Of a stretch of DNA of 40,340 nt, positions 1 to 16,148 are shown piece after piece. The notes beneath the pieces are model-generated. The model was not told where the DNA came from. It searched no databases and worked only from the letters and a program-made list of their open reading frames with translations. A program made the translations under genes and the position numbers. Positions within the stretch are counted from its first letter, which is position 1; every line of letters starts with the position of its first letter. The stretch comes from an uncultured Acidimicrobiaceae bacterium (lineage in GTDB: Bacteria > Actinomycetota > Acidimicrobiia > Acidimicrobiales > Poriferisodalaceae), in contig CAJWBN010000007.1 of assembly GCA_913020735.1 (NCBI GenBank), forward strand, positions 1-40,340, in the 5' to 3' direction.

Positions 1-2060
1 CTCGCTAATTGAGGGTCATTGACAACGTCTCCAGCGTCGAGAACGGCGCCGGCGGGGACACCAACTCCTTGGAGGTCCTCCATGAGTTCCCGATCGTTGC
101 ATTCCGCTGTGAAGGATGCGATTCGTTCATCAATTTCATCGTGCCGATGCCACCTCTCGTCAACGTTGAGGTCTCGTAAATCACCCCAATCGGCTATTTC
201 ACAAAGTCCGTTCCAGGAGGCATCATCGATGACAGATATTGCTATCCAGCGGTCATGACCAGAGCAGGGGTAGACCCCTTGGGGAGCTCGTCCCGGTCGT
301 CGATTCCCCCATCTTTGGGGGGCTCCGTTTGTCTGAGCCGTTACGACATGCTGACCAATCATATTTATGGCTGTTTCCGCTTGAGCTACCTCAACCGTTT
401 GTCCCTTCAGACCGCAACATTGACGATCAAGCAAGGCAACTAGAGTGGCTGCCGCTGCATGCAGCCCGGCAGTTGGATCGGGCCAGGCAATCCCACATTT
501 CCAAGGAATTTCATTTCGATAGCCGGTCAACCACGTATGTCCTGCGTGACCGTCAATTGTCGGTCCATACGCGACCCAGTCCTTATTCGGCCCTGATCTT
601 CCATATCCGGGCATCGTCACATAGGTTAAATCTGGGTTGTGTTGCTTAAGAACGGTTTCATCTAATCCGAAGTTGGGCATAACCCTCGGCGCAAAGTTTT
701 CGATTACGACATCTACCTTTGGGAGCATCCGTAGAAAAAAATCTCGCCCCTCTTCCTTGTCGAGTTCGACAACTGTTGAAAGTTTGTTGTTGGCGTACTT
801 GTTGTGAAAACCAGTTCTATTCCAAGGTCGCTCTCCCGCTTCATCATCTGGGAAGAAGTGTGTGGAATCCACATAACTTTGCGGAACTTCTAGTGGTGTC
901 CGAGTCCAAGGAACCTCTGACATCAGAACTTCGGCGCCTAAGTCACCAAGAATGCGGGCTGCTAGTGGGCCCGCCCACACGCGAGTCATATCCAGCATCC
1001 GAAAGCCTGTTAATGGCCCATCATTAAGTTGACTTATTACCTCGCTCCCTGATTCCAAATCTCCATCTTTGTCCTTGGCTCCAATTTGCCAGTCATGATG
1101 ACTCATCCGAAACGGAGGGCCCGGAATATGAACTCCATGGCTATCTGACCGCCAAAACTCCCGTTCTCGAAGGTGTGGGTCGTCGAATAGGTCTTCCACC
1201 GTCGATATAGGCGCTATAGGAAGCCGGAGAGCTTGAAACAGTTCCACCAGCTGGTCTCGTTGCTGCGTCTTCAAAAAAGGAACTAATTCAGTGTCAAGAA
1301 GGTCTTGGTCTGTCATAACGTCATAAATCGTTTCAACGTCATCGCGTTCCAGAAGAGCGGTCAAACCCGTTACTTCTAAGAGGCGCTCCATCTGGTCACT
1401 TTGACTGATTGCTAATCCGATCCAGCCATCGGCGCACTCATAGGCTCCGATAGGAGTTCCCGGTCCGCTATATCGGTTTCCCATACGATTCAAGATTGCG
1501 CCATTGTGCGTATAGCGGAGAAGGCTGAACTGATGCAGCGCGGCAATAACTTCTTGGTGCGAAGTTTCAACTACCTGACCTTGTCCCGTACGAGCGCGGG
1601 TCATAAGGGCAGCAAGCGCCCCTATAAATCCAGTGACGCCGGCAGCCATGTGGACTAAGTCAGGGACACCGTTCAGCGGTTCTCTCTCTGGGCTACCGCT
1701 AAGTCTGAGATGTCCACCTATCGCAGCGTCGACTAAGTCGGTTGACCTCCAACCTGAATAAGGGCCGTGAGAAGCGAACGGTGAAATTCGCAGGACTATC
1801 TGCTGGGGGTTGCACGGCTCAAAAAGTGATGCCAATGGGTCGTTACTGGAAGATTGGATAACTACATCAGCTTTGTCGGCTATATCGACATCAACGAAAT
1901 GTTTAGATGCGTCAAAGAATACGTTCGCTGCCGAATCACGCCCATCTCTGTTTACATGGACTTCGCTGCCATAGTCAGCAAACAGTTTTCCGGCGTATGC
2001 CCCCGCTATTGAGTCGCCAATTTCCATCACTAGAAGAGATCCAAGTGCTGTTTGGGTCAC
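1..2060 (-). CDS. Family III (CaiB/BaiF) CoA-transferase, double-domain, 3' end truncated by the window edge
   Basis: Manual reverse-strand translation gives a continuous reading frame (MTQTALGSLLVMEIGDSIAGAYAGKLFADYGSEV...TGQGQVVETSHQEV...FRMLDMTRVWAGPLAARILGDLGAEVL...VVIENFAPRVMPNFGLDE...GVPAGAVLDAGDVVNDPQLA). It has two CaiB-like Rossmann modules. The likely GTG start at 2060 overlaps the upstream gene's stop (GTGA). It is absent from the ORF track because it runs off the window. Confidence 0.85.
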   Translation of the reverse strand, partial: MTQTALGSLLVMEIGDSIAGAYAGKLFADYGSEVHVNRDGRDSAANVFFDASKHFVDVDIADKADVVIQSSSNDPLASLFEPCNPQQIVLRISPFASHGPYSGWRSTDLVDAAIGGHLRLSGSPEREPLNGVPDLVHMAAGVTGFIGALAALMTRARTGQGQVVETSHQEVIAALHQFSLLRYTHNGAILNRMGNRYSGPGTPIGAYECADGWIGLAISQSDQMERLLEVTGLTALLERDDVETIYDVMTDQDLLDTELVPFLKTQQRDQLVELFQALRLPIAPISTVEDLFDDPHLREREFWRSDSHGVHIPGPPFRMSHHDWQIGAKDKDGDLESGSEVISQLNDGPLTGFRMLDMTRVWAGPLAARILGDLGAEVLMSEVPWTRTPLEVPQSYVDSTHFFPDDEAGERPWNRTGFHNKYANNKLSTVVELDKEEGRDFFLRMLPKVDVVIENFAPRVMPNFGLDETVLKQHNPDLTYVTMPGYGRSGPNKDWVAYGPTIDGHAGHTWLTGYRNEIPWKCGIAWPDPTAGLHAAAATLVALLDRQCCGLKGQTVEVAQAETAINMIGQHVVTAQTNGAPQRWGNRRPGRAPQGVYPCSGHDRWIAISVIDDASWNGLCEIADWGDLRDLNVDERWHRHDEIDERIASFTAECNDRELMEDLQGVGVPAGAVLDAGDVVNDPQLA

Positions 2061-3253
2061 GGGATGACTCCCGATTCTTTCATTTCTATGATGCGATCCC
2101 AATCGATACCCAGTTCGTTAAGAACGAGTTCTGTGTCTTGCCCAAGCGAAGGGGCACCATTCGAAACTTCCCATTCTGTGACCGAAAAATCGATGGGAGA
2201 CGCGACCATTTCTACAGTTTCTGCATCATCTGTACTCACCTGTATCCAGCAGCCAGCAGCTCTGCTTTGCGGATCCGTCAACAATTCGAGACTGGACTGA
2301 ACTGGTGCCCACCAAACATCGTTTGCATCAAAAATTCGACCCCATTCATCACGTTCTTTGGTTAGAAGAATTGCATCCATCTCAGCAGTCAGAATTGATG
2401 AATTCTCCATCCGGGTTTCAATTCCAGAGAATCGTTGATCTTCTAGCCATTTCGGAACTTCCAAAGCCTCAACTACCTGTGGCCAGTGTCGGTCTCCTTC
2501 AAGCCCTAGCATCCACAGCCATTTGCCATCAGAGCATTTGTAGCAATTAATGAGGGGGTTGGGCTGTTCATCTCGGCCTCTGACCACAACGTCATCACCT
2601 GTAGCTGCCGTCACGTTGTGATCCCAACCCAACATGTAGGTTCCAATTCGCATCAGCGAAGTTTCGACTAGTTGGCCTTCCCCGCTTCTTTCCCTGTGGA
2701 ATAAGGCGGCTGATATGCCAGCTACAGCTCCTAAGCCGGTCATATGATCTCCCATCCCTCCTCGTTGCACGGGAGGGTCATCTTGACCTGAGCTCAGAGC
2801 GTGGGCAATTCCAGACCGCGACCAGAAAGCTCCAATGTCGTATGCCTGGCGGTTAGCTTCTTCTCCACGAAGCGACATCCCTGTCACGCTTGCGTAGACA
2901 AGTTTGGGGTAGCGGTTACACAGTGTTTGGTGGTCCAAACCAAGACGTTCAAGGCCTGCTGGGCGATAGTTCGTTAAGAAAACGTCTGCTGTCTCCAGGA
3001 GGAGGTGCATGACTTCCATTCCTGGGGAACTTCGTAGGTTCATCGCGACGCTTCGTTTACCTCTGTTGTCTAACTCGAAGGGCGGGTTGCTGTCTCCGGC
3101 AAACAGCCATTCAAGTCCCCGGAACGGGTCACCTTCATGAGGCTCGACTTTGATGACATCCGCGCCCCAATCAGCAAGAATTCCGCCGCATGCGGGTCCG
3201 GCTACCCAAAGTCCTAGTTCTACGACACGCACTCCCTGCATCGGCCCTGGCAT
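2057..3253 (-). CDS. Family III CaiB/BaiF CoA-transferase
   Basis: 398-aa ORF: MPGPMQGVRVVELGLWVAGPACGGILADWGADVIKVEPHEGDPFRG; catalytic-Asp region GMGDHMTGLGAVAGISAALFHRERSGEGQ. Confidence 0.93.
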   Translation of the reverse strand: MPGPMQGVRVVELGLWVAGPACGGILADWGADVIKVEPHEGDPFRGLEWLFAGDSNPPFELDNRGKRSVAMNLRSSPGMEVMHLLLETADVFLTNYRPAGLERLGLDHQTLCNRYPKLVYASVTGMSLRGEEANRQAYDIGAFWSRSGIAHALSSGQDDPPVQRGGMGDHMTGLGAVAGISAALFHRERSGEGQLVETSLMRIGTYMLGWDHNVTAATGDDVVVRGRDEQPNPLINCYKCSDGKWLWMLGLEGDRHWPQVVEALEVPKWLEDQRFSGIETRMENSSILTAEMDAILLTKERDEWGRIFDANDVWWAPVQSSLELLTDPQSRAAGCWIQVSTDDAETVEMVASPIDFSVTEWEVSNGAPSLGQDTELVLNELGIDWDRIIEMKESGVIP

Positions 3254-3286
3254 TTCGTCACTCTCCTCCCTGATGCGGGATCGTAG

Positions 3287-4591
3287 TCACTTCCGAGCGT
3301 CTAGGGTTTTGTAACCGGATGATGTCGCCCGAATTAACGAGTCAGCAGGTAGGCCCGGGACTAGCGGTGAGACAACCGTCATGGCTCTTGCTTCAAAATC
3401 CGAAACGGCTTCTTGGTTTCGAAGGGGTCTTGCAGTTGCAACGTGAATCCATTCATCTGGGTCGACGGGAACAACAGGTGAGTCCGAAGAGAGAGTGACC
3501 TTGATACTTCGCTCAACAAGCGACGACAACGGCCATAACCACGCCTGTTCAACGGGCGATAAATCTTCAAGATATTTGTCTAGACGTCTAGTTAGAAATG
3601 ACGGCTGAGTGCAGACAGACGCATCGAGTTGAGCTAGACGATCTAGTTGTTCAGGCATCGCAAGCGAGCAATGCTCCAGCCGGTCAAGAGTAAGTGCTGG
3701 TGGTGGTGAGGATTCAAGGGCATGCAAGGTGTCGTCAAGCATGTCGATATCCATGACGTGAACCGCTACAGGGAAACCGCTGGCATGCGCCTGATTGACG
3801 AGCCAGCTGAGATCTTCTTTACCGTCTAGATCAGGCATCACCTTGGCGTGGCCTATCCGAATGCCTTTGTATGTTTCACCGAACTGCATGCCGTCTAGTC
3901 GGTCTGCACCAACCATTGCGGTAATGCGAGGACCGTCGCACTCTTCAGCTATTTCAGCCAAAATATCTATAGAGGCCCGATCGTTGGTGTGGGTAGCGTC
4001 AGTGATCGCCACTAAACCCATTCGCTTCCAGTCTTTGAAAAGATTGCCAGCGGTCTGTTTAAGGTCTGCCAATTCGAGTCTCGGAACGCGACTCAGTAAG
4101 TCTTGTCGCTCAACCAAAATTCCATCTGGATAGTCATGAATTTCTAATATCTCAGCAGCGACGCTGTTCACAACGGCGACATGACCTGATCGATCGTGAA
4201 CGACAGTCGGGATCCCCCGCGTAACCTGATCTAACTCCAACTTCGTAGGGTGACGCTTCTCTCTCAGCAAGCTAGGTTCATACCCCCATGCACGCATCCA
4301 GCCGTTCTCTCCGGCGGAACTGGACCTAAGTAGATCTAATAAATCAGCTAGGGACGTGGCGTTTGATACATCAATTGAGCAGTGAGTGGCCAAAGTTGAA
4401 AGAAGGTGAAGGTGGTCGTCTCGCCAACCAGGTTGCACAATTTCGTTTGTATCTAGCTCGATGACTTCGTCAGCTTCTTCAGCACTGGTCTCGATTTCAT
4501 GAACTACCCCATCGCGCAGCAATAAATTTGTCGCGACGGGTCGACTCGCATCGAAAGTATGGACCTTTCCTCTCACGAGGAGCGAGGTCAT
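3287..4591 (-). CDS. Amidohydrolase (amidohydrolase_3/YtcJ-like)
   Basis: 434-aa ORF: LLVRGKVHTFD...LLLRDGVVHEIE...IVQPGWRDDHLHLLSTL metal-site motif; DRLEHCSLAMPEQ; LSSDSPVVPVDP. Confidence 0.8.
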   Translation of the reverse strand: MTSLLVRGKVHTFDASRPVATNLLLRDGVVHEIETSAEEADEVIELDTNEIVQPGWRDDHLHLLSTLATHCSIDVSNATSLADLLDLLRSSSAGENGWMRAWGYEPSLLREKRHPTKLELDQVTRGIPTVVHDRSGHVAVVNSVAAEILEIHDYPDGILVERQDLLSRVPRLELADLKQTAGNLFKDWKRMGLVAITDATHTNDRASIDILAEIAEECDGPRITAMVGADRLDGMQFGETYKGIRIGHAKVMPDLDGKEDLSWLVNQAHASGFPVAVHVMDIDMLDDTLHALESSPPPALTLDRLEHCSLAMPEQLDRLAQLDASVCTQPSFLTRRLDKYLEDLSPVEQAWLWPLSSLVERSIKVTLSSDSPVVPVDPDEWIHVATARPLRNQEAVSDFEARAMTVVSPLVPGLPADSLIRATSSGYKTLDARK

Positions 4592-4596
4592 TAGTT

Positions 4597-6168
4597 TTAG
4601 ATACCTAGTTCTTCAAGCAACGGGATCAGATCTCTTCTTAGGAGCTTGCCCGTTGAAGTGCGAGGCAACTCTTCCATCAGGTGAACTGCTTCAGGCCTCT
4701 TGAAGGGCGCAAGTTTCTCCTTCGCAAAAGCGACAAGGTCTTCGGGGGTAACTCCACTTCCCTCGCGGATGACAGCTGCCGCCACAACACGCTCGCCCCA
4801 TTCTTCAGAGGCAACCCCTACTACTGCGCATTCCAAAACGGCACTATTTTCATAGAGGACAGCTTCAACTTCGTCGGGGGAAACATTCTCTCCTCCTCGA
4901 ATAATCATGTCACCGGTTCGGCCACCTAGAAATAGATAGTCGTCTTCGTCTAAGTACCCGAGATCCCCTGTGTGAACCCATCCTTCGTCGTCAACGGTGA
5001 CGCGAGTTTTTTCTTCATTGCCCCAGTATCCGTCCATCGCTCGAAAGGTTCGGAGTTGGACTTCGCCTAGGACTCCAGCCTCAACCGGGTTCCCTGCTTC
5101 GTCAACGACTCTGACCTCAACATCATCGAGGACCTGCCCGACTGAGGAGAGACGCTTTAATTTCAGCGCTTGTTCTTCTTCTGTTCCTTCTACCCGGTGA
5201 TCATCAGGATCTAGCACAGCTACCGTCGAGGTAGTTTCGGTTTGGCCGTATGCACCGGCAAAGGAGACGTTCGACGGGAATTCACCGATAGCCCTGCGGA
5301 TCACAGAGGGAGGCATTGGCGCGGCGCCATATGTTATTGCTTCCATGCCAGCAAACGCTTCAGGCGAGAAGTTATCCGCTTCCATTACCCGGCCCAGCAT
5401 CGTTGGCACTAGGAATGCGTGAGTTACTGAATGTTTTTGGACAGTGGTAATCCAAGCCGAAGCTTCAAACTGAGGCAGCAGCACGACTACCCGTCCGCTG
5501 TAAAGAGCGTTCAACATCGAGGTCACGCCGGCAATGTGGTACAACGGCGCCGCAAGCGCCATTCTGCCCATGTCCTCTCCTGTAGCGGCATCATTGGTTC
5601 CCATGACGTAGCCAGTGAGGGCACCGTTGGTTAATTTCACGCCTTTAGGTAGTGAAGTTGTTCCACTTGTATAGAGAAGAGCACATAGCCCATCCGGATC
5701 AACATCTTCTGGCACTGGGAGCTCAAATGCTTCATCTCGAGCTTGGGCATATGAGTCTTCCTCATTAAGCATAAAAACATGTTCGACACTGTCTGGCCGA
5801 TTTTCATCCACCAGATCTCGATAGCGCGTCTCGGTGAACAGGACCTTTACTCCACTGTCAGACATGAGATGCGCTGCTTCTTCAGCCCCAGCGCGAAAGT
5901 TCATTGGAACAACAGTGGCCCCAACAAATGCGGCACCAAAAATTGCTTCAACGCACTCAACGCTGTTCGTGGCGAATACTCCGACGCGATCGCCGGCCTC
6001 TACCCCCAGCGTCGTTAGCAGCCCTGCTGTTCTACTAACATTTTCAAGGAGCTCGCCGTACGTAACTTCACGCGCGGCCCCTCCTTCGCTCTCAGTTGAA
6101 GTGTCAATTAGAATTATCTGCTCGCCAGCTATCGAGGCTGGCATGAAAAGCAACATTCCCAGGTTCAC
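4597..6168 (-). CDS. AMP-binding acyl-CoA synthetase/ligase
   Basis: 523-aa ORF with LLYTSGTTSLPKGVKLTN, GAYGQTET, GWVHTGDLGYLDEDDYLFLGGRTGDMIIRGGENVSPDEVE and PRTSTGKLLRRDL motifs. Confidence 0.95.
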   Translation of the reverse strand: MNLGMLLFMPASIAGEQIILIDTSTESEGGAAREVTYGELLENVSRTAGLLTTLGVEAGDRVGVFATNSVECVEAIFGAAFVGATVVPMNFRAGAEEAAHLMSDSGVKVLFTETRYRDLVDENRPDSVEHVFMLNEEDSYAQARDEAFELPVPEDVDPDGLCALLYTSGTTSLPKGVKLTNGALTGYVMGTNDAATGEDMGRMALAAPLYHIAGVTSMLNALYSGRVVVLLPQFEASAWITTVQKHSVTHAFLVPTMLGRVMEADNFSPEAFAGMEAITYGAAPMPPSVIRRAIGEFPSNVSFAGAYGQTETTSTVAVLDPDDHRVEGTEEEQALKLKRLSSVGQVLDDVEVRVVDEAGNPVEAGVLGEVQLRTFRAMDGYWGNEEKTRVTVDDEGWVHTGDLGYLDEDDYLFLGGRTGDMIIRGGENVSPDEVEAVLYENSAVLECAVVGVASEEWGERVVAAAVIREGSGVTPEDLVAFAKEKLAPFKRPEAVHLMEELPRTSTGKLLRRDLIPLLEELGI

Positions 6169-6291
6169 GGTATCCCCCTGTTGTCCTCAGGAATGATCGC
6201 GGATGAAAGCACCCGCGCGCCACACCAGAGCAAAGTTTCCTTTAAGTCGAGCTTCTGAACTTACGCTCTCAACCAAGTTATTCTTGCTTTT

Positions 6292-6915
6292 ATGGCAAAG
6301 AACATCGAATTTTGGGTTGACCCTATATGACCTTGGTGCTGGGTGACGGCCCGTTGGGTCGTCGACGAAGTCGCATCACAACGCGACCTTTCAATCACTT
6401 GGCAACCAATAAGCCTTCTGTTCAAAAACGAGCCCGCTGAAGACACTCCGTATCACGAGTCCACAATGCTTACACACAAAATGTTGCGGGTCATGGAGGC
6501 GGTAAGGGCTAGTGGAGCTGAGAATAAAGTTTTTGATCTGTATTGGGAATTTGGCAGTCGGATCCACCACGATGGTGACCGAACTTTCGATTTAGCAGAA
6601 GCTTTGGAAACAGCAGGGGTTGCTCGCGAATACTCAGCAGCCGCAGATGAGGAAAAGTGGGACGCGATAATTAGGGCCAAGATGGATGATGGATTGTCTT
6701 TAGTCGGCGACGATGTCGGAACTCCGATAATCGCCTGGGACCGCGGAAACGGTGACCGGGTCGCTCTATTTGGACCAGTCATAACAAGGGCTCCGCGAAA
6801 CGAAGATGCGCTGAAGCTTTGGGATGCAATGATGATGCTTGGAGATATCGAGGGGTTTTGGGAGCTAAAAAAGACTCGAACCGAACGACCTGAATTTGGC
6901 GAGCGACCCAAGTGA
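6292..6915 (+). CDS. Candidate selenoprotein: DsbA-family mycothiol-dependent reductase (Rv2466c-like) with a UPWC active site; TGA 6328-6330 read as Sec
   Basis: ATG at 6292 reads MAKNIEFWVDPI-TGA-PWCWVTARWVVDEVASQRDLSITWQPISLLFKN... in the same frame as the 6343..6915 ORF. The protein matches the remembered layout of Rv2466c (FWFDPLCPWCWITSRW; GEDVGTP; FFGPVLSKIPRGEEAGKLWD; FFELKRTRTE) as FWVDPI(U)PWCWVTARW, GDDVGTPII, LFGPVITRAPRNEDALKLWD, FWELKKTRTE. The TGA replaces the first Cys of CPWC. Confidence 0.85.
6345..6363 (+). promoter_or_regulatory. Candidate bacterial SECIS hairpin
   Basis: GACGGCCC-GTT-GGGTCGTC: 8 bp (7 Watson-Crick plus one G-U), triloop GUU starting with G. There are 22 nt between the TGA and the apical loop. 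Confidence 0.7.
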
Positions 6916-8087
6916 ATCCCGAGGTCTTCAAAGATTTAAAGGTGATTGACACCGACAGCCATTGGTCCGAGCCTTACGACCTCTGGACAAGTCGTGCGCC
7001 AGCAAAGTGGCGGGATCGAGTCCCTCAAATGGAGGAGCGTGACGGCAAACGTCGCTGGTGGTTTGACGGCGATATTCCGATCGGTCTTCCAATCGCATCT
7101 TCCGTGATTAATCCTGAAGGTGAAAAGATCACAGGTACCGCCTTCTTCGATATGGATAACGAGGTAGTGCACCGAGCCAGCTTCGACCCTGATGCTCGGG
7201 TTGCAATGCTCGATGCTTTAGGCATCCATGCGCAGATTATGTACCCAAATGTTGCCGGCTTCGGAAATCAAAATTTTCTTAAATCGCCCGATGAATCGTT
7301 ACGTTTGCTCAGTGTCGAAATTTACAACGATGCTCTCGCCGAATTTCAAGCAGATACCGACCAACGGGTATTCGGAATGGCTCTCTTGCCTTGGTGGAAC
7401 TTAGATGCCGCGGTACGAGAAATAGAGCGAGCCCACAGAAATGGGCTTCGAGGTGTAGTGACTTGCGCCAACCCTGAAGAGGCCGGAATGCCCGATATGG
7501 GAACAGATCATTGGGATCCAGTGTGGCAAGTTTGTTCTGATCTCGAAATGCCAGTGAACTTCCACATCGGTTCATCTAAAGGGAACATGGATTTTTTCGG
7601 TCGCGCTCCTTGGCCATCTTTTGGTGAAGAACGAAAATTGGCTGTTGGTTCGGCAAATTTATTTATGGGGAATGCTCGTACGATCGGGAATCTCATTTAC
7701 TCAGGTATCCCAGAGCGCTTCCCTGAGCTGAAGTTTGTGTCTGTCGAAAGCGGAGTCGGTTGGTTGCCATTCTTTCTCGAAATCCTTGACCATCAGATGA
7801 CTGAGACGGCGCCAAACGAGCTGGCACATTTGTCTCTTCTCCCATCAGAATATTTTCGCCGTCAGTTTTTTGGATGTTTTTGGTTTGAAAGGTCAACCAT
7901 CAAACCAACAGTCGAATTTCTTGGGAGCAATTGTCTGCTCTTCGAAACTGACTTTCCACACCCAACATGTCTTTATCCGAGAGATGATGCTCATTTGCTC
8001 GAGGCTTTCAGCGGGTTAGAAGACGCGGATATCCAAGCGATACTTCAAGATAACGCTGCAGCGTTATACCGGATAGATGTTTCTTAG
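6912..8087 (+). CDS. TIM-barrel metal-dependent amidohydrolase (amidohydrolase_2 family)
   Basis: 391-aa ORF: LKVIDTDSHWSEPYDLW...VNFHIGSS...FVSVESGVGWLPFFLE...LLFETDFPHPTCLYP. GTG start overlaps the preceding stop (GTGA). Confidence 0.9.
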   Translation: MNPEVFKDLKVIDTDSHWSEPYDLWTSRAPAKWRDRVPQMEERDGKRRWWFDGDIPIGLPIASSVINPEGEKITGTAFFDMDNEVVHRASFDPDARVAMLDALGIHAQIMYPNVAGFGNQNFLKSPDESLRLLSVEIYNDALAEFQADTDQRVFGMALLPWWNLDAAVREIERAHRNGLRGVVTCANPEEAGMPDMGTDHWDPVWQVCSDLEMPVNFHIGSSKGNMDFFGRAPWPSFGEERKLAVGSANLFMGNARTIGNLIYSGIPERFPELKFVSVESGVGWLPFFLEILDHQMTETAPNELAHLSLLPSEYFRRQFFGCFWFERSTIKPTVEFLGSNCLLFETDFPHPTCLYPRDDAHLLEAFSGLEDADIQAILQDNAAALYRIDVS

Positions 8088-8140
8088 TGAACGCGCCTTG
8101 CGCTCAATAATGACGGCGACACGGTTAACACGCCCTCAAT

Positions 8141-8461
8141 TTATCTGTGAGTGACCTGCTTGAGATTATCTATATGAGCTCCAAGTTCAGAAGCTGCCCG
8201 CATCATTCCAAGTCTCCACGAGATGGCACCTTGAAAGGGATTTGTCACCCATATATCGATTGCTCCCGAATTGGACATTTCTTCGGTGAAACGCAGACTT
8301 CGGGTTCGACCTTTGAAGCGCATGGTCACACCGACCGAGCCATCTTTCATCGTTACGGGCTCATCCATCCCTAAACCAGCGTTTCGCCCTTCGATCACGG
8401 CGGTACGGGCCTGTTGTCTGAGAACGGCGGTATTCATAACGCAGGGGACATTAACCGCCAA
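8141..8461 (-). CDS. Hypothetical protein (106 aa)
   Basis: ORF fills the gap between flanking genes; composition is plausible for a protein, but I recognise no family. Confidence 0.5.
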   Translation of the reverse strand: MAVNVPCVMNTAVLRQQARTAVIEGRNAGLGMDEPVTMKDGSVGVTMRFKGRTRSLRFTEEMSNSGAIDIWVTNPFQGAISWRLGMMRAASELGAHIDNLKQVTHR

Positions 8462-8541
8462 ATGAGCAATACCTTTTCATTTCAGCCATATTTCCATTTT
8501 CATTTGGCTTCGTTAGCCGAGTTATCCCCTTAGTTCAGTCA

Positions 8542-9849
8542 ATGAAACTGATAGATGGGTCAAAGAAGTCTCGGGTTAGAACTATCTTCGACGCCATGAT
8601 CAAAGAATTCGACAGTCCACTTGCAGGGGTCAAAGTGGTTGAGATCACCTCAATCTATTCAGGACCAATGGCCGGAATGATGCTCGCCGAACTCGGGGCT
8701 CAGGTGACAAAAGTCGAGAGCCCTAACGGCCCCGATCCTGTTCGTTCTCAGGGTTTGGCGGGAACTGCAGATGGGGTCAATAGCACCTTTTATTCGCTCA
8801 ACCGAGGAAAGCGCTTCTGCTCCATCGACGCCAAGACTTCGCGGGGCAAAGAATTACTTTTCGAACTCGTCACAAACGCAGATGTCTTTATCCATAACAT
8901 GCGCCCCGGTAAAGCCGAGGGCTTGGGACTCGACTACGAGTCCCTGTCAGCGGCAAATCCAAGAATCATTTATGGAGCCATCACCGGCCACGGGCCCGAA
9001 GGACCTGAAGCACACCTTCCGGCTTACGACTACGTGGTTCAGGCGAAACTAGGGATGGTTGACTACCAGAGGGATAAAGACGGACGCGGCGATTTAGTCC
9101 GCCAAGTCGTTGTAGACAAGACCTCAGCTAACGGTCTGGTGCAAGGCGTTCTAGCGGCTCTATATATGAGAGAAAAGACGGGGAAAGGACAACGAATCGA
9201 TATTCCGATGGTCGCTGCTGGGCTTGCTTTTCTTTGGCCAGATGGGCTGGCTCCGGCACACGCTGAACTAGAACCAATGATGCCCATTGACCAGCTGCCG
9301 CCCTGGCTCGAATCAGCACCAGGTTCTTTCCTAGTCGTGCTGGAGACCTCAGACGGCGAGATCGCCACCGGTATTCTTCTTCCGCCGTGGGATGGCCTGT
9401 GTTTAGCTCTTGAACGGACTGATTGGGTCACAGATGAGCGGTTCACTGACCAATTAAATCGAGTTCTCAACTTGCCTGCCCTAATAGATGAGGTAGCAAC
9501 CGAAGTAGCCAAATACTCAACCGAAGAAGTGCTGTCACGATTCCAGACCTACGATTTTGCAGCAGGCAAAGTGGTGACCAGAAGAGAAATTCAGGATGAC
9601 CCCACTATCCAACACTTGGGCCTAATTACCGAACAAGAGGCTCCCGGAGTAGGCCGTGTGCGCCAACCAGCGCCAATGTGGATGTTTAGTGACGCCAAAA
9701 CTGAAATAACCACAAGCTTGAACGTGACAGGGGGCGATTCACTCGAAGTTCTAATGGAGATAGGCGTTTCCGCTGACGAGTTCGAACAACTCAAAGAAGC
9801 AGGCATTGTTCTTGTGACAGATAGCAGTCAGGAACCTACAACTAGCTAG
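8542..9849 (+). CDS. Family III CaiB/BaiF CoA-transferase
   Basis: FDSPLAGVKVVEITSIYSGPMAGMMLAELGAQVTKVESPNGPDPVR...VDKTSANGLVQGVLAALYMREKTGKGQRID. Real start may be 8599 (MIKEFDSPLAG). Confidence 0.9.
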   Translation: MKLIDGSKKSRVRTIFDAMIKEFDSPLAGVKVVEITSIYSGPMAGMMLAELGAQVTKVESPNGPDPVRSQGLAGTADGVNSTFYSLNRGKRFCSIDAKTSRGKELLFELVTNADVFIHNMRPGKAEGLGLDYESLSAANPRIIYGAITGHGPEGPEAHLPAYDYVVQAKLGMVDYQRDKDGRGDLVRQVVVDKTSANGLVQGVLAALYMREKTGKGQRIDIPMVAAGLAFLWPDGLAPAHAELEPMMPIDQLPPWLESAPGSFLVVLETSDGEIATGILLPPWDGLCLALERTDWVTDERFTDQLNRVLNLPALIDEVATEVAKYSTEEVLSRFQTYDFAAGKVVTRREIQDDPTIQHLGLITEQEAPGVGRVRQPAPMWMFSDAKTEITTSLNVTGGDSLEVLMEIGVSADEFEQLKEAGIVLVTDSSQEPTTS

Positions 9850-9901
9850 TCTCCAAAATGGCAGCGGTTACATTCGTGTGGCACACCGCATCGAAACAAC
9901 C

Positions 9902-10615
9902 TCAGGAAGAGCGCGCCAACCTGCGTTCCAGTTGCAACCCAATTTCTAGGGGCAGATCTTGAGACGCTGCGATGCATCGTCGAAGTGCTGAAGCGACCGA
10001 TGGGTCAAGGCGCGCTAGTTGTTCTGCCATCGCCTTGGCGGTATCTCCGAGATCTATGGGCTCAACCAATTGGGTGACTATTCCCAGCTCAAGAGCATCA
10101 GGAGCATTTATCTCGCGACCTGTAAGGATAAGGGGCAACGCCTTATGGGGACCTATTACCTGACTAAGGCTCTGCGTTCCTCCCGCCGCCGGCAACATAC
10201 CGAGTTTGGTCTCAGGTAGCCCCATCACTGTGTTAGTTGCTGCTATTCGCAGGTCGCACAGCAATGCCATTTCAAGGCCTGAACCCATGGCATAGCCTCT
10301 GAGCGAAGCAATCGTTGGCACAGGGAGGCTTAAAAGAGGCAACCAAGGGTCTCTTTCCCATCTAATCCTCCGAGCCTCAAAGATTGAAGAAGCGGAACCA
10401 AATTCGCTGAGGTCTGCTCCAGCGCTGAAGTGTTCGCCTTCAGATCGAAGCAAAAATGCTCGGGCATCGGGATTGTCTCTAACTGCACTAATAGCTTCAA
10501 TCAATCCATCTCTCATCTCCAGGTCATAGATATTGAGAGGCGGGTTGGAAATAACTGCGGTGGCTACCCCTTGGTCCGAAAAGGAGAGGGTGACCTTGTC
10601 GCTCACGGTGTGCAC
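9902..10615 (-). CDS. Enoyl-CoA hydratase/isomerase family protein
   Basis: 237-aa ORF: LLRSEGEHFSAGADLSEF...GYAMGSGLEMALLCDLRIAATNTVMGLPETKLGMLPAAGGTQSL. Confidence 0.93.
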   Translation of the reverse strand: MHTVSDKVTLSFSDQGVATAVISNPPLNIYDLEMRDGLIEAISAVRDNPDARAFLLRSEGEHFSAGADLSEFGSASSIFEARRIRWERDPWLPLLSLPVPTIASLRGYAMGSGLEMALLCDLRIAATNTVMGLPETKLGMLPAAGGTQSLSQVIGPHKALPLILTGREINAPDALELGIVTQLVEPIDLGDTAKAMAEQLARLDPSVASALRRCIAASQDLPLEIGLQLERRLARSS

Positions 10616-11571
10616 TCCAAAGCGGCGACGGACTTATCTAAAGAAATTCGGCAAACCTGGGGAAGATCTCTCATCATTTGACCAAGAGCTACAGCGCATG
10701 CTTCTAATCCAGCTAATGGATCCGGATAAGAGAAAGCAGGGGTCACTGGTCGCCCCATCTGCCATCCATAGCCTGAAGTCGCGTGCACTCCTGTGCCATA
10801 GGCAACCCAGTCACTTTCATCGCTTGCCGAAGTAAATGCTGTGATTGTTAGAACTGCGATGTCCGGATTAATTGAGCGCAGCTGCTCCGGGGTGATCCCG
10901 AGGTTCATGTTGGCTCTCGGAGACAAAGATGTAACGATCAAGTCAGCAGCTCGAAGTAACCGATGAAATTCGCCACCTTCTGAACAATAACGAAGGTCAA
11001 TATCTGCAATTTCTTTTGATTTATTGAGCTCCTTAAACATCGGAGCTTGACCTAATCCATTATCCCCATCTCCATAACGCAGCCCATCAGGTCGACAAGA
11101 TGGTTCAATTTTGATGACCCGAGCACCAGAACGAGCAAGAAGTTCTGTGCAGAGCGGACCCGCCCACATCGAAGTTAAGTCAATTACCGTTAGGGATTTA
11201 GAGTCAATCGTTCGACTGCAATAACCCAGGTCATGGGGCGGCAGAGGTGTGGGGGATTTTCGGTACGGAGTAACTGGAAGTCTCCACACCTGCGCTCTTC
11301 GAGCAACTGACTCAGGGTCATGATCTGTTTCGGCTAAAGCTTCAAATCTTGTCCAAGTGTCCTTGTCGTCGGGACCCAAATCAAGACATATAAAACCATC
11401 CCCCCATGATGTGGCTGGTTGCGGTCGAGTTGGCTCATCAACTACTCGTTCTGGCATCTCAATCCAGTAATCAGCGGGACCTACGATGTCAGTTCCGACT
11501 CGACTGACGATTACATCAGCAAGTTCTACTCCTCGCTCATGAAGATTCGCAGGTAGCCAGTAATCGGTCAT
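10603..11571 (-). CDS. Atypical short CaiB/BaiF-like CoA-transferase protein (322 aa)
   Basis: Core LTVIDLTSMWAGPLCTELLARSGARVIKIEPSCRPDG ... AFSYPDPLAGLEACAVALGQMM begins about 120 residues in; the protein ends shortly after the catalytic-Asp region. Confidence 0.82.
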   Translation of the reverse strand: MTDYWLPANLHERGVELADVIVSRVGTDIVGPADYWIEMPERVVDEPTRPQPATSWGDGFICLDLGPDDKDTWTRFEALAETDHDPESVARRAQVWRLPVTPYRKSPTPLPPHDLGYCSRTIDSKSLTVIDLTSMWAGPLCTELLARSGARVIKIEPSCRPDGLRYGDGDNGLGQAPMFKELNKSKEIADIDLRYCSEGGEFHRLLRAADLIVTSLSPRANMNLGITPEQLRSINPDIAVLTITAFTSASDESDWVAYGTGVHATSGYGWQMGRPVTPAFSYPDPLAGLEACAVALGQMMRDLPQVCRISLDKSVAALECTP

Positions 11572-12392
11572 CGTCCAGAAAAGTCAGGCGGCCGCTTAGA
11601 AAAAAATGCTTCCAAACCTTCAGCACGGTCATCCGTGGCTGCTAATTGATGGTTGAGGTCGCCTTCAAGTCTTAGGCCATCTCGCAATGGGAGTTCACTA
11701 CCTCGATGCACAGCTTCTTTCGCCATCTGAAGCGCCAAAGGGCCACAGGACATCAGCAATTCGACGGTCTTTTCTAATTCGACCCCGTCGCCTTGGTCTA
11801 CAGAATGGATTAGACCCCAAAGTTCTGCTGTTGCTGCATCAATTTCTACTCCCAATAAGAGCATCGACGCGGCTCGCCCATGGGAAATAGCTCGCGGTAA
11901 ACGTTGCGTTCCGCCCCACATAGGAAGCAGACCATTTGTTGGCTCTTTAAGCGAAAAATAGCTATCAGGAGTTCCAATACGTATGTCACAAGCAAGCGCT
12001 ATCTCTAAGCCACCAGAGCTACATGTCCCTGAGATCATTGAAACTACGGGTATTTTCAGCGCTGATACACACGTCGCCGGGTCCGGTGAAACAAATTGCG
12101 GATCAAAGTCCTCTGCAAGACCGGTACAAAAGTCAGAACCAAGTGACGTCAGCACTACTACCCGGATCTCGCGATCCTCTTGGATACCTTGACACGCTTC
12201 GTTGAGTTCCGTTGCCGTGCGCGCTTCAAGGGCACCGCCAGGCATGGTCACCGTAGCTACGTGACCATCGGCTGATGTTGTAACGGCGACCGAATCGGAC
12301 TGCAGAATGGCCCTCGCTGTTTCGTCGTGTGCCGACTGATCAGTCGGCAGATTTAGTTTTCTTAGGCTCTTGCAGTTGCATGTCTTTACCAT
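11568..12392 (-). CDS. Enoyl-CoA hydratase/isomerase family protein (start uncertain; N-terminal part overlaps the next gene)
   Basis: VVVLTSLGSDFCTGLAEDF...GTCSSGGLEIALACDIRIGTPDSYFSLKEPTNGLLPMWGGTQRLPRAI. Confidence 0.9.
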   Translation of the reverse strand: MVKTCNCKSLRKLNLPTDQSAHDETARAILQSDSVAVTTSADGHVATVTMPGGALEARTATELNEACQGIQEDREIRVVVLTSLGSDFCTGLAEDFDPQFVSPDPATCVSALKIPVVSMISGTCSSGGLEIALACDIRIGTPDSYFSLKEPTNGLLPMWGGTQRLPRAISHGRAASMLLLGVEIDAATAELWGLIHSVDQGDGVELEKTVELLMSCGPLALQMAKEAVHRGSELPLRDGLRLEGDLNHQLAATDDRAEGLEAFFSKRPPDFSGR

Positions 12393-12597
12393 TGCACTGC
12401 AGGGTGATCTCGCCTGGCTTGGTAACCAGAACTTCGATGCCTGTATCTTCGTCTTGGTAGCGCTTCCCTACTTTTAGGCCCTCGCCGCCGTCATTGTGGG
12501 TGATATCACCTTCGCCGCCTTTGGTCACGATGACTTGAACACCGCCGTCGAAGTCGAGACGGTCACCTGCTTTGGTCGCCACTATGCGTACCCCCAT
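12340..12597 (-). CDS. Small repeat protein (85 aa), unknown function
   Basis: Three (V/I)x(V/I)xxTKxG repeats: VRIVATKAG, VQVIVTKGG, IEVLVTKPG. Located in the gap between the enoyl-CoA hydratase and the divergent epimerase. Confidence 0.7.
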   Translation of the reverse strand: MGVRIVATKAGDRLDFDGGVQVIVTKGGEGDITHNDGGEGLKVGKRYQDEDTGIEVLVTKPGEITLQCNGKDMQLQEPKKTKSAD

Positions 12598-12681
12598 ATC
12601 GATGGAACTTTCAGAGAAACCTACCGTAGATCAAGCCACTTTTTCCTCCCGCGACAAGAACTCAGCAGCGAGAATGTGGAA

Positions 12682-13773
12682 ATGATGACTGCGCTAATAA
12701 TTGGCGGCACTGGCCCAACAGGGCCATATGTCGTAAATGGGCTCATAGATCGTGGCTTTCAGGTCACTATTCTTCACACCGGTAGACATGAAACTGAGCT
12801 CATCGGTCCTGAAGTGGAACACATCCATAGTGATCCCTTTGACGTCAGAAAAACCGCTGAGGACTTAAATAATCGAACGTTTGATCTAGTAGTGGTGATG
12901 TATGGGAGGCTTCGTGATTTGGCTCAATTGTTGGTGGGGAGGGTAGGTCACTTCGTTTCCATAGGAGGTGTCGGTGTTTATCAGGGTTTCGCAAATCCAG
13001 ATGACTTGTTTCCCCTCGGAATGCCCATTCCACTTCCTAATGGCTCTGATCTAGTCAACGATGACGAATCCTTTGTGAAGCTTCGTCGAATCCGCGAAAC
13101 AGAAGAAGTTGTTTTTACCGCCCACCCTGATGCAATCCATCTGCGATATCCACAGCTATACGGTCCCCGTCAAATACTTCCCCGGGAATGGCCAATCGTG
13201 CGTCGCGCTCTTGATCGTCGACCATTCTTGATCGTCCCTGACGGAGGCCTCACAGTAAAGAGCCAAGCCTGGGTAGAAAATGCCGCTCACGCGACACTCC
13301 TCGCTGCAGACCGGCCTGATGCGGGCGTTGGAAACATTTACAACGTCTCGGACGAAAAGTTGTTCAGCATCCGCCAGATAGCAGAAATCATTGCAGACGA
13401 ACTAAATCATGAGTGGGAGATAGTTTCGCTTCCTCAAGAAGTCGCTACCTCTACTCGCCCCATGCTGACGAGTTGGTCAAGTTCACACAGGGTTCTAGAT
13501 ATTGGACCAACAATTAGAGACCTCGCTTATAGGGACCTAGTCAAGCCCGAGGATGCTTGGCGAAGTGCCGCTCGCTGGTTGGCTAATAACCCACTTGAAC
13601 GCGGCGGCAACATAGAAGCTCGGCTTCAAGACCCTTTCGAATACAGCAGCGAAGACCGCCAATACGAGATTTGGGAAAAGTGTCGGCAAAATCTCAGCGA
13701 AATTAATTGGTCAGTTGACCCAGGCTATTCATCGGCCTATGTAGGGCGTGTTCCGAACCCAGCGGCCGACTAA
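12682..13773 (+). CDS. NAD-dependent epimerase/dehydratase-like protein
   Basis: ALIIGGTGPTGPYVVNGLIDRGFQVTILHTGRH Rossmann motif; HLRYPQLYGPRQ; NIYNVSDEKLFSIRQIAEII. The listed ORF starts at 12496, but M at 12682 precedes the NAD motif and avoids the opposite-strand gene. Confidence 0.85.
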   Translation: MMTALIIGGTGPTGPYVVNGLIDRGFQVTILHTGRHETELIGPEVEHIHSDPFDVRKTAEDLNNRTFDLVVVMYGRLRDLAQLLVGRVGHFVSIGGVGVYQGFANPDDLFPLGMPIPLPNGSDLVNDDESFVKLRRIRETEEVVFTAHPDAIHLRYPQLYGPRQILPREWPIVRRALDRRPFLIVPDGGLTVKSQAWVENAAHATLLAADRPDAGVGNIYNVSDEKLFSIRQIAEIIADELNHEWEIVSLPQEVATSTRPMLTSWSSSHRVLDIGPTIRDLAYRDLVKPEDAWRSAARWLANNPLERGGNIEARLQDPFEYSSEDRQYEIWEKCRQNLSEINWSVDPGYSSAYVGRVPNPAAD

Positions 13774-16148
13774 TCGAGAACGCCACTGCCTCGCAACTGT
13801 TGGATTTCATCTTCACCCAGAGCAAGTAAAGAGGACAAAATTTGGTCAGTGTGCTGACCCAACATCGGTGCCGGGGATTTGACTCCATTTTGACAGTCAC
13901 GCAACAGCCATGGAATGCCCGTGTGCGCCAAGGTTCCAACCACTGGATGGTTGAGCCGTTCAATAAACCCTCTGTCGTTAAGGTGAGGGTCGCCTTCTAA
14001 GGATTGTGCATCAAGGGACGGCATCGCTGGTATCCCTTCACTTTGTAAAAGACGCGTTATCTCCCATTTATCGCGAAGTACAGTCCAATCTTCGATGTGG
14101 GCATCGAGTTCGGCTTCCCATTTCTTTCTTGAGGTTTGAGATTCAAATTTGGGATCATGCAGGCCTAGAACCGCTGCCAGGTCATGCCACTGTTCTTCGG
14201 TTGCGCAACTGATCGCTACCCACTCATCATCTCCTTTACAGCGGTAAAGATTGTGGGGCGCCATAATCGGGTCCCTGTTTCCATAGAGATCTGGTTGCTG
14301 GCCTGTTAGAACATGTTGAGTCCAGCCTTCGACGGTGCTCGAAGCCGTTGCTTCCCATAACGAAGTATCTATGAACTGGCCTTCCCCAGTCCGGCGTCGA
14401 GCGATTAAGGCAGCGATCAGTAGATGAGCGGTTGCAATACCTGCCGCCGGATCTCCAAGAGAGACACCTACTTCTTCAGGTTTTCCGCCTTCGTATCCAG
14501 TCATTGAGGAAAGACCTGATAACGGCGCGGTTGTAGGTCCATATCCTAAATAGTCTCGGTATGGACCGTAATTGCCATAGCCACTTATCACCCCGACGAT
14601 CACGTCGGGTCGTACCTCCATCAGGTCGTTATATCCGAGACCAAATTTTTCCATTACCCCAGTCGCATAGTTGGAGACAACCAAGTCGCAGCTAGTCGCT
14701 ATTTTCTTGGCGACCGCTCGACCCTCCACGGTCGACAAATCTAACGTGACACTCTTTTTGCCTTGACCCCACTGGTTGAAATACCCATTACTGTCCACCG
14801 AAGCTTCGTGGTTAACAGAAAAGAGTGGGAGGCGACGCCCTAAGTCCGGGGCTTGTTTTGATTCAACCTTTATTACTTCGGCACCTAGGTGGGCTAAATG
14901 CATCGTGCAAAAAGGCCCAGCCCATACCCATGTAAAGTCCGCTACGGTGACCCCTTCCAGAGGCCGCGAACGAGACTTTTCACGAACTAGATCACTGCTT
15001 CGAGGTTGAGTAAAGGTCGCGTCTTGGTGTTCTCCAAGAGACGGAGCGGGTTCACGAATAGACCACCAAGGCTTTGATAGTCGCGCTACCGGGCCGGGTA
15101 GCGCAATTTTGCCTAAACCAGGCTGATCTACCTCAACTATGAACCCCCGTTCGCGTAAATGAGGATCATCAAGCATTTGTTCGATCGTATTGACAGGGGC
15201 AAATCCAATTCGCTTACCTTGCCCAAGATGGAACAGATCCATGACTTGTTGAGGCGCTGCCCATTCTCCAAGCCACAGGTGAAGCAAATCTTCAGCATCT
15301 GCTCGGCCCGCTTGGGTGTCGAAGATCTCCATCTGAGACCATTCAGGGAAACCCATAACTTCTTTAAGACGTGACCACTGATCATCTTCCACGCAAACTA
15401 TGAAGATGCGACCGTCAGCTACCTCAAAGATGCGCCAAGGATTCAGAATTCGGCTCCCAGTTCTACCCGGGATTTCATTTAGATAACTCCAACTGATGAA
15501 CCCCGCCTCAAGCATGCTTGAGATATAAGCAATGCCTGCTAGATCAAGATGTTCTCCTTCACCGGTGCATAGAGCTCGGTCCAACGCTCCTAAAGCAATA
15601 GTCGCAGCGGCGAAGCCGATCTGAAAACCAGCTTGTTGCCCTGCTGGTTTAAGCGGTGGAAGGTCTGATTCATCCGAACAGCCTGGCGTGAGCCAACCCC
15701 AGCCTCCCCCATGAATCAGCTGCAGATCTTCAGCGGCCCAACGCGAATAGGGCCCGGATCGGCCAAAGGGAGTCACCGAAACTGTTACCAGCGAAGGGTG
15801 TTGCCTCGCTAGTTCATCTTCATGCAGACCAACTGAATTCGCAACATCAGGTGGCAGATCATGAAGCAGCAGGTCGGCTTCTTGCAGCAATTCGTGTAGT
15901 CGCGTTACATCCGAAGATTTGGTGAGGTCGGCCACAACACTTCGTTTGTTGATATTTAGATGAATAAATAGGCCACTTTGAGATGCATCCGGACCTCCCG
16001 GAAATGGACCTCGTTGTCTCGCGCGGTCTCCTTCAGGAGGTTCGATTTTGACTACATCCGCTCCCAAATCAGCTATTAAACGGGTAGCCCACGGGACCGC
16101 GATCATTTGTCCAAGTTCGACTACTCGTATGCCTTCCAGCCCTTGCAT
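13770..16148 (-). CDS. Fused double-domain family III CaiB/BaiF CoA-transferase
   Basis: 792-aa ORF with two modules: GIRVVELGQMIAVPWATRLIADLGADVVKIEPPEGD... and [41 protein letters not shown]...VSLGDPAAGIATAHLLIAALIARRRTGEGQFIDTSLWEA. Confidence 0.95.
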   Translation of the reverse strand: MQGLEGIRVVELGQMIAVPWATRLIADLGADVVKIEPPEGDRARQRGPFPGGPDASQSGLFIHLNINKRSVVADLTKSSDVTRLHELLQEADLLLHDLPPDVANSVGLHEDELARQHPSLVTVSVTPFGRSGPYSRWAAEDLQLIHGGGWGWLTPGCSDESDLPPLKPAGQQAGFQIGFAAATIALGALDRALCTGEGEHLDLAGIAYISSMLEAGFISWSYLNEIPGRTGSRILNPWRIFEVADGRIFIVCVEDDQWSRLKEVMGFPEWSQMEIFDTQAGRADAEDLLHLWLGEWAAPQQVMDLFHLGQGKRIGFAPVNTIEQMLDDPHLRERGFIVEVDQPGLGKIALPGPVARLSKPWWSIREPAPSLGEHQDATFTQPRSSDLVREKSRSRPLEGVTVADFTWVWAGPFCTMHLAHLGAEVIKVESKQAPDLGRRLPLFSVNHEASVDSNGYFNQWGQGKKSVTLDLSTVEGRAVAKKIATSCDLVVSNYATGVMEKFGLGYNDLMEVRPDVIVGVISGYGNYGPYRDYLGYGPTTAPLSGLSSMTGYEGGKPEEVGVSLGDPAAGIATAHLLIAALIARRRTGEGQFIDTSLWEATASSTVEGWTQHVLTGQQPDLYGNRDPIMAPHNLYRCKGDDEWVAISCATEEQWHDLAAVLGLHDPKFESQTSRKKWEAELDAHIEDWTVLRDKWEITRLLQSEGIPAMPSLDAQSLEGDPHLNDRGFIERLNHPVVGTLAHTGIPWLLRDCQNGVKSPAPMLGQHTDQILSSLLALGEDEIQQLRGSGVLD

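Follow-up and report, generated by a model that had tools for sequence, protein, structure and literature searches.

The gene at positions 6292-6915 of the window, by which we mean the whole 40,340-nucleotide stretch of an uncultured Acidimicrobiaceae genome analyzed here, very likely encodes a selenoprotein, probably an oxidative-stress enzyme of the Rv2466c type and a mycothiol-linked reductase. Judging from sequence comparison, selenocysteine (Sec) is almost certainly inserted at residue 13. An earlier sequence-only reading had proposed a Sec form of an Rv2466c-type protein, and conservation of the TGA codon, homologues with Cys or Sec at the site, the sel genes of the same genome and a covarying hairpin all agree with this proposal.

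An in-frame TGA at the active site

Read through from the ATG at 6292 to the TGA at 6913-6915, the frame yields a product of 207 residues, MAKNIEFWVDPI-U-PWCWVTARW..., and the TGA at 6328-6330 is the sole stop within its 207 codons. The gene and surrounding features are as follows.

6292..6915, plus strand: candidate selenoprotein gene, Rv2466c-like; 207 residues, Sec as residue 13, terminal TGA at 6913-6915
6328..6330, plus strand: in-frame UGA, the predicted selenocysteine codon (residue 13), opening the CPWC motif; TGA in 65 relatives, TGC or TGT in Cys orthologues
6337..6339, plus strand: Cys16 codon, expected resolving Cys of UPWC; TGC or TGT in 65 of 65 Sec loci
6343..6915, plus strand: truncated ORF from a standard caller, without the active site; from the ORF list
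6345..6363, plus strand: SECIS-like hairpin, 19 nt, 8 bp, loop GUU at 6353-6355, 22 nt from UGA to loop; indicated by covariation, low synonymous divergence and the published model
6724..6726, plus strand: Pro145 codon in DVGTP, expected cis-Pro loop of the thioredoxin fold; invariant in alignment A3
6912..8087, plus strand: amidohydrolase-2 gene (PF04909), its GTG start overlapping the last bases of the selenoprotein gene; neighborhood kept in close relatives only

The TGA in place of the first CPWC Cys of an Rv2466c-like frame, pointed out in the sequence-only reading, is read directly in the sequence and recurs in 65 aligned loci. The called ORF does start past the active site, as had been remarked: the ORF list has a single entry at the locus, 6343-6915 (190 amino acids, GTG start), which begins 3' of both active-site residues, its GTG being the codon of Val18 in the full-length protein. 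Because the list shows only this part, the active site is lost in ordinary gene calling. The rest of the protein is intact, with DVGTP, FGPV, KLWD and ELKKTRTE all found as claimed.

In codons -8 to -1 relative to the TGA, synonymous differences reach 0.76 per site and nonsynonymous ones 0.09 (pN/pS 0.12); for codons +12 to +19 after it, the values are 0.80 and 0.28. These flanking codons therefore argue for protein-level selection on the frame on both sides of the TGA.

Recurrence of the TGA among relatives

The gene with its TGA is present in 32 of 37 genomes of the same family. Across one order, 65 aligned loci from 11 family-level groups have the TGA at the identical residue and a Cys three residues on. 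MedAcidi-G3, a marine actinobacterium, and metagenome genomes of Acidimicrobiales are among the named relatives, which makes a marine Acidimicrobiales origin most likely for the window. Orthologues in related lineages carry TGC or TGT at this position. The sequence-only reading had suggested asking whether homologues align Cys or Sec at the TGA and whether the TGA recurs in related genomes, and both proved to be the case.

Among 396 genomes sampled from the phylum, matches at E 1e-45 or better with an in-frame TGA are confined to this order. Seven matches lie elsewhere: none contains an internal stop, and the four that were read have Cys. Second TGAs in some relatives were set aside, being the terminal stop in those read.

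A SECIS-like hairpin after the TGA

The hairpin at 6345-6363 has a folding energy of -12.2 kcal/mol. Bacterial SECIS elements have been modeled with a loop of 3-9 nt carrying a G in its first two positions, a stem of 4-16 bp, a spacing of 16-37 nt and an energy of at most -7.5 kcal/mol (PMC13188914); our hairpin falls within all these limits. An Rfam scan around the gene gave no match. Single-sequence folding at the gene produced weak z-scores, from -0.9 to -2, and a comparative test of the hairpin was therefore needed.

This test used alignment A2, with 50 distinct sequences. The helix is paired in 97.8% of cells and shows 13 double changes, with three pairs varying on both sides; changes are compensatory and mostly synonymous, the third positions of Thr and Val codons pairing as G-C, A-U, U-A and C-G across the alignment. 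None of 500 shuffles reached the observed covariation score, and one of 500 reached the number of double-changed pairs. Since this shuffle control ignores relatedness, more weight falls on the variety of pair types and on a second control, in which sliding the partner strand destroyed the pairing. RNAalifold recovered the same helix.

Constraint at the codon level points the same way: synonymous divergence is 0.26 in the seven hairpin codons, versus 0.88 in the four preceding codons and 0.76-0.88 around. Sec sequences fold at a mean of -11.0 kcal/mol, versus -5.6 for their synonymous recodings. Among Cys orthologues, 10 of 11 fold no better than synonymous recodings, the hairpin being absent.

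Selenocysteine machinery

The sequence-only reading had also proposed a search of the same genome for selA, selB, selC and selD, and all four are present. The tRNA-Sec gene, selC, has anticodon tca and exceeds the Rfam cut-off with 64.3 bits; SelA (TIGR00474) and SelB (TIGR00475) score above their cut-offs and adjoin each other on contig C9, and SelD, likewise above its cut-off, lies on contig C10. The selD gene itself (L068:1486-2541, G000:C10) reads GAGUACK with an in-frame TGA, at the usual Sec site of SelD. This SelD is probably a selenoprotein in its own right, and the position of its TGA makes it an internal positive control.

All 30 family genomes that bear a tRNA-Sec also have the Sec gene. 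Two others (G017 and G029, 77% and 81% complete) have the gene and no detected tRNA-Sec, and the five family genomes that lack the gene also lack a detected tRNA-Sec. Three of these five (G002, G005 and G031) contain an FrnE-like gene with an in-frame TGA, selC not being found; the family-wide contrast between gene and selC is therefore partly assembly loss. Order-wide, many genomes with Cys forms have selC as well. The presence or absence of selC within the family was rejected as a clean natural test, weakened as it is by incomplete assemblies with another Sec gene and no detected selC.

Should the TGA be a genuine stop, the locus would be a pseudogene, a sequencing error or the source of the short product from GTG 6343 only. 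A standard ORF search does yield this short frame alone, but the product would be without both active-site residues, and this reading is hardly credible given the TGA shared at one residue by 65 independent loci, selection on the codons 5' of it, a covarying hairpin after it and Sec machinery in the genome. Read-through as such is demanded by the sequence, and UGA might instead be read as another amino acid, for example Trp, by general recoding or leaky read-through. We regard this as very improbable: the gene and others in the window terminate with TGA, a tRNA-Sec with anticodon tca is present, related lineages have Cys and not Trp at the site, and SelD of the same genome has a TGA at its usual Sec site. 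The earlier dismissal of both gene decay and a general recoding of TGA is upheld by the 65 TGA loci and by the TGA ends of this and other window genes. Under the selenocysteine reading, SelB carrying Sec-tRNA would bind the hairpin and insert selenocysteine at residue 13.

Protein family and predicted fold

Membership of the Rv2466c family, as first proposed, is borne out by Pfam, by sequence and by predicted fold. The window protein matches the Rv2466c-like family PF22234 over the whole model (E 8.5e-42, 143.8 bits versus a cut-off of 27), as do all 23 members of alignment A3, and it also matches DSBA (PF01323, E 7.4e-10). A sequence search of solved structures returned 4zil, 4nxi, 5xur and 4wkw. 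An AlphaFold2 model, computed from 23 sequences (window protein and relatives) with Cys substituted for Sec, has a mean pLDDT of 92.7; the ten top-ranking structures by fold are without exception Rv2466c or the M. leprae homologue, with a TM score of about 0.8 (about 0.83 to solved Rv2466c).

Rv2466c of Mycobacterium tuberculosis (Mrx2, a DsbA-like mycoredoxin; PDB 4zil, 4nxi, 5xur) thus shares Pfam family and fold with the window protein, together with a CPWC-type site with its second Cys, the DVGTP loop and a C-terminal ELKxTRTE stretch. The TGA aligns with the first CPWC Cys of Rv2466c and its M. leprae homologue, and the second Cys, DVGTP and FGPV are retained. However, the two proteins are about 40% identical, Sec replaces the nucleophilic Cys19, and the window protein belongs to a separate subfamily. 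Since an orthologue nearer to Rv2466c (67.5% identity to 4zil) is present elsewhere in the order and the identity here is only about 40%, substrate and electron donor may differ in the Sec protein. The window's genome also encodes a Cys paralogue (L046, G000:C10:1283-1912) with CPFA, that is, a single redox Cys; it is kept across the family.

Gene neighborhood

Genes for CoA-transferase III, one of them a tandem double, crowd the region 2057-16148 of the window together with those for enoyl-CoA hydratases, an acyl-CoA synthetase and two amidohydrolases. This is probably a catabolic region, and it is largely kept in close relatives. Close relatives likewise keep the overlap with the amidohydrolase gene, which other family-level groups do not; the two genes are probably co-transcribed in the home clade. 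We discarded a function deduced from the acyl-CoA neighbors, as this neighborhood is not kept outside the clade.

Function and mycothiol

Rv2466c uses Cys19 as nucleophile and Cys22 as resolving residue, and is reduced by mycothiol (PMC11841060, PMC8280269). The window protein has its two redox residues spaced as in CxxC (UPWC), and every Sec locus that was read retains Cys16. Mycothiol itself is likely present, to judge from gene content: Mca of the window's genome scores 277.7 bits, just above the cut-off of 277.15, and an MshC-like ligase scores 419.8 bits, which is below the cut-off of 485.1 and above its CysS model score of 359.8, so that the MshC call is insecure. A TGA within the MshC match of another genome, G042, was set aside as ordinary, since it lies just before the start codon.

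Homology and the mycothiol genes point to a mycothiol-linked reductase role, which we consider likely; a mycothiol-dependent nitroreductase activity may be presumed, and plain 'reductase' is the more cautious term. The protein could well act as Rv2466c does, but with a stronger nucleophile; its substrate and electron donor would be those we infer from that protein. On the Rv2466c pattern, the Sec selenolate, in place of Cys19, would attack mycothiolated or disulfide substrates. Cys16 would form a selenenyl sulfide and so resolve the adduct, and mycothiol together with a reductase that uses NADPH would regenerate the enzyme.

A selenoprotein that is not a mycothiol-dependent reductase, with another electron donor or with a substrate tied to the acyl-CoA and amidohydrolase neighbors, seems to us the less likely case. 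It would suit the identity to Rv2466c of only about 40%, the home-clade overlap with an amidohydrolase gene among CoA-transferase and acyl-CoA synthetase genes, and a weaker fold match to Kappa-class glutathione transferase. Against it, Rv2466c is the best match by profile and by fold and both active-site positions are retained, the genome likely has mycothiol genes, and the acyl-CoA neighborhood is not kept outside the home clade.

Evolution of the Sec form

In a maximum-likelihood tree, built by a quick method and with many weak forks, Sec forms make up a clade, and the branches just outside it are Cys genes (L043, L090-L092). Several Cys genes are nested among the Sec ones, and the fewest changes on this tree number 8. 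One of the Cys orthologues, L081 (G167:C1:127249-127872, minus strand), reads CPFC with codon TGC and has kept an intact hairpin of -12.2 kcal/mol; only 1.5% of its synonymous recodings fold as well. It pairs with a Sec gene, L117 (UPFC), with an SH-aLRT of 91; the hairpin is a probable relict of a Sec-to-Cys reversal. A distant Rv2466c-like homologue, L056 (G040:C126, about 5944-6543), about 32% identical, also has TGA at this site and may have gained Sec independently, its placement in the tree being unsafe. On balance we lean slightly towards an unnamed mycothiol-redox selenoenzyme, old and widespread in Acidimicrobiales (the order being judged from named relatives), which would have arisen from a Cys ancestor and undergone several Sec-to-Cys losses, with the L081 hairpin as a relict.

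Relation to known DsbA-like selenoproteins

DsbA-like selenoproteins with UxxC have been known since 2005 from the Sargasso Sea, where they were assigned to COG2761 (PMC1088965); the GOS study split DsbA-like selenoproteins into DsbA 1, 2 and 3 (PMC2398784), and a 2026 review recognizes DsbA-like forms 1 and 2, the latter described by DxxUP and not UxxC (PMC13188914). Like the window protein, these marine metagenome proteins combine the DsbA fold (PF01323) with UxxC (form 1, DsbA 1/2) and occur in marine bacteria; the Sargasso group is set apart from it, by description, as COG2761 and not the Rv2466c family. Compared by description, DsbA-like form 2 or DsbA 1/2 possibly include the Rv2466c-like Sec family, and DPIUP would fit DxxUP.

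Many of the genomes with the window's Sec gene also encode an FrnE-like selenoprotein (ITVWSDYLUPWCWVG; L049, L133-L135), which is likewise DsbA-like with a TGA at the first position of CPWC. It belongs, however, to a different subfamily, aligning with the window protein over a short N-terminal stretch only. An example lies at G010:C73:34572-35213; the copy in the window's genome (G000:C28:19887-20285) is cut by a contig end.

Corynebacterium glutamicum has two mycothiol-dependent DsbA-like reductases of the DsbA-Mrx1 cluster, NCgl2478 and NCgl2339, with CPFC, in which the first Cys is nucleophilic and the second resolving (PMC8280269). Likened by description, their site resembles the UPFC and CPFC of L117 and L081 in the window protein's family; unlike the window protein, both use Cys only.

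A search of largely open-access literature found no paper joining selenoproteins and Rv2466c or naming a Sec form of Rv2466c. Where papers mention selenoprotein alongside mycothiol, or selenocysteine alongside mycoredoxin, their titles and abstracts do not deal with a protein of this kind. The family may possibly have entered selenoprotein lists without its name. DsbA-like UxxC selenoproteins are already known, and it is the Sec form of Rv2466c that appears to be new.

Significance

The gene links selenium to an Rv2466c- or mycothiol-type redox protein, a pairing not found in the literature searched, and in all these genomes ordinary gene calls lose the active site. Rv2466c, a prodrug activator in M. 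tuberculosis, offers a ready biochemical yardstick. Close relatives supply natural orthologues with Sec, with Cys and with a relict hairpin, which makes the benefit of Sec over Cys directly testable.
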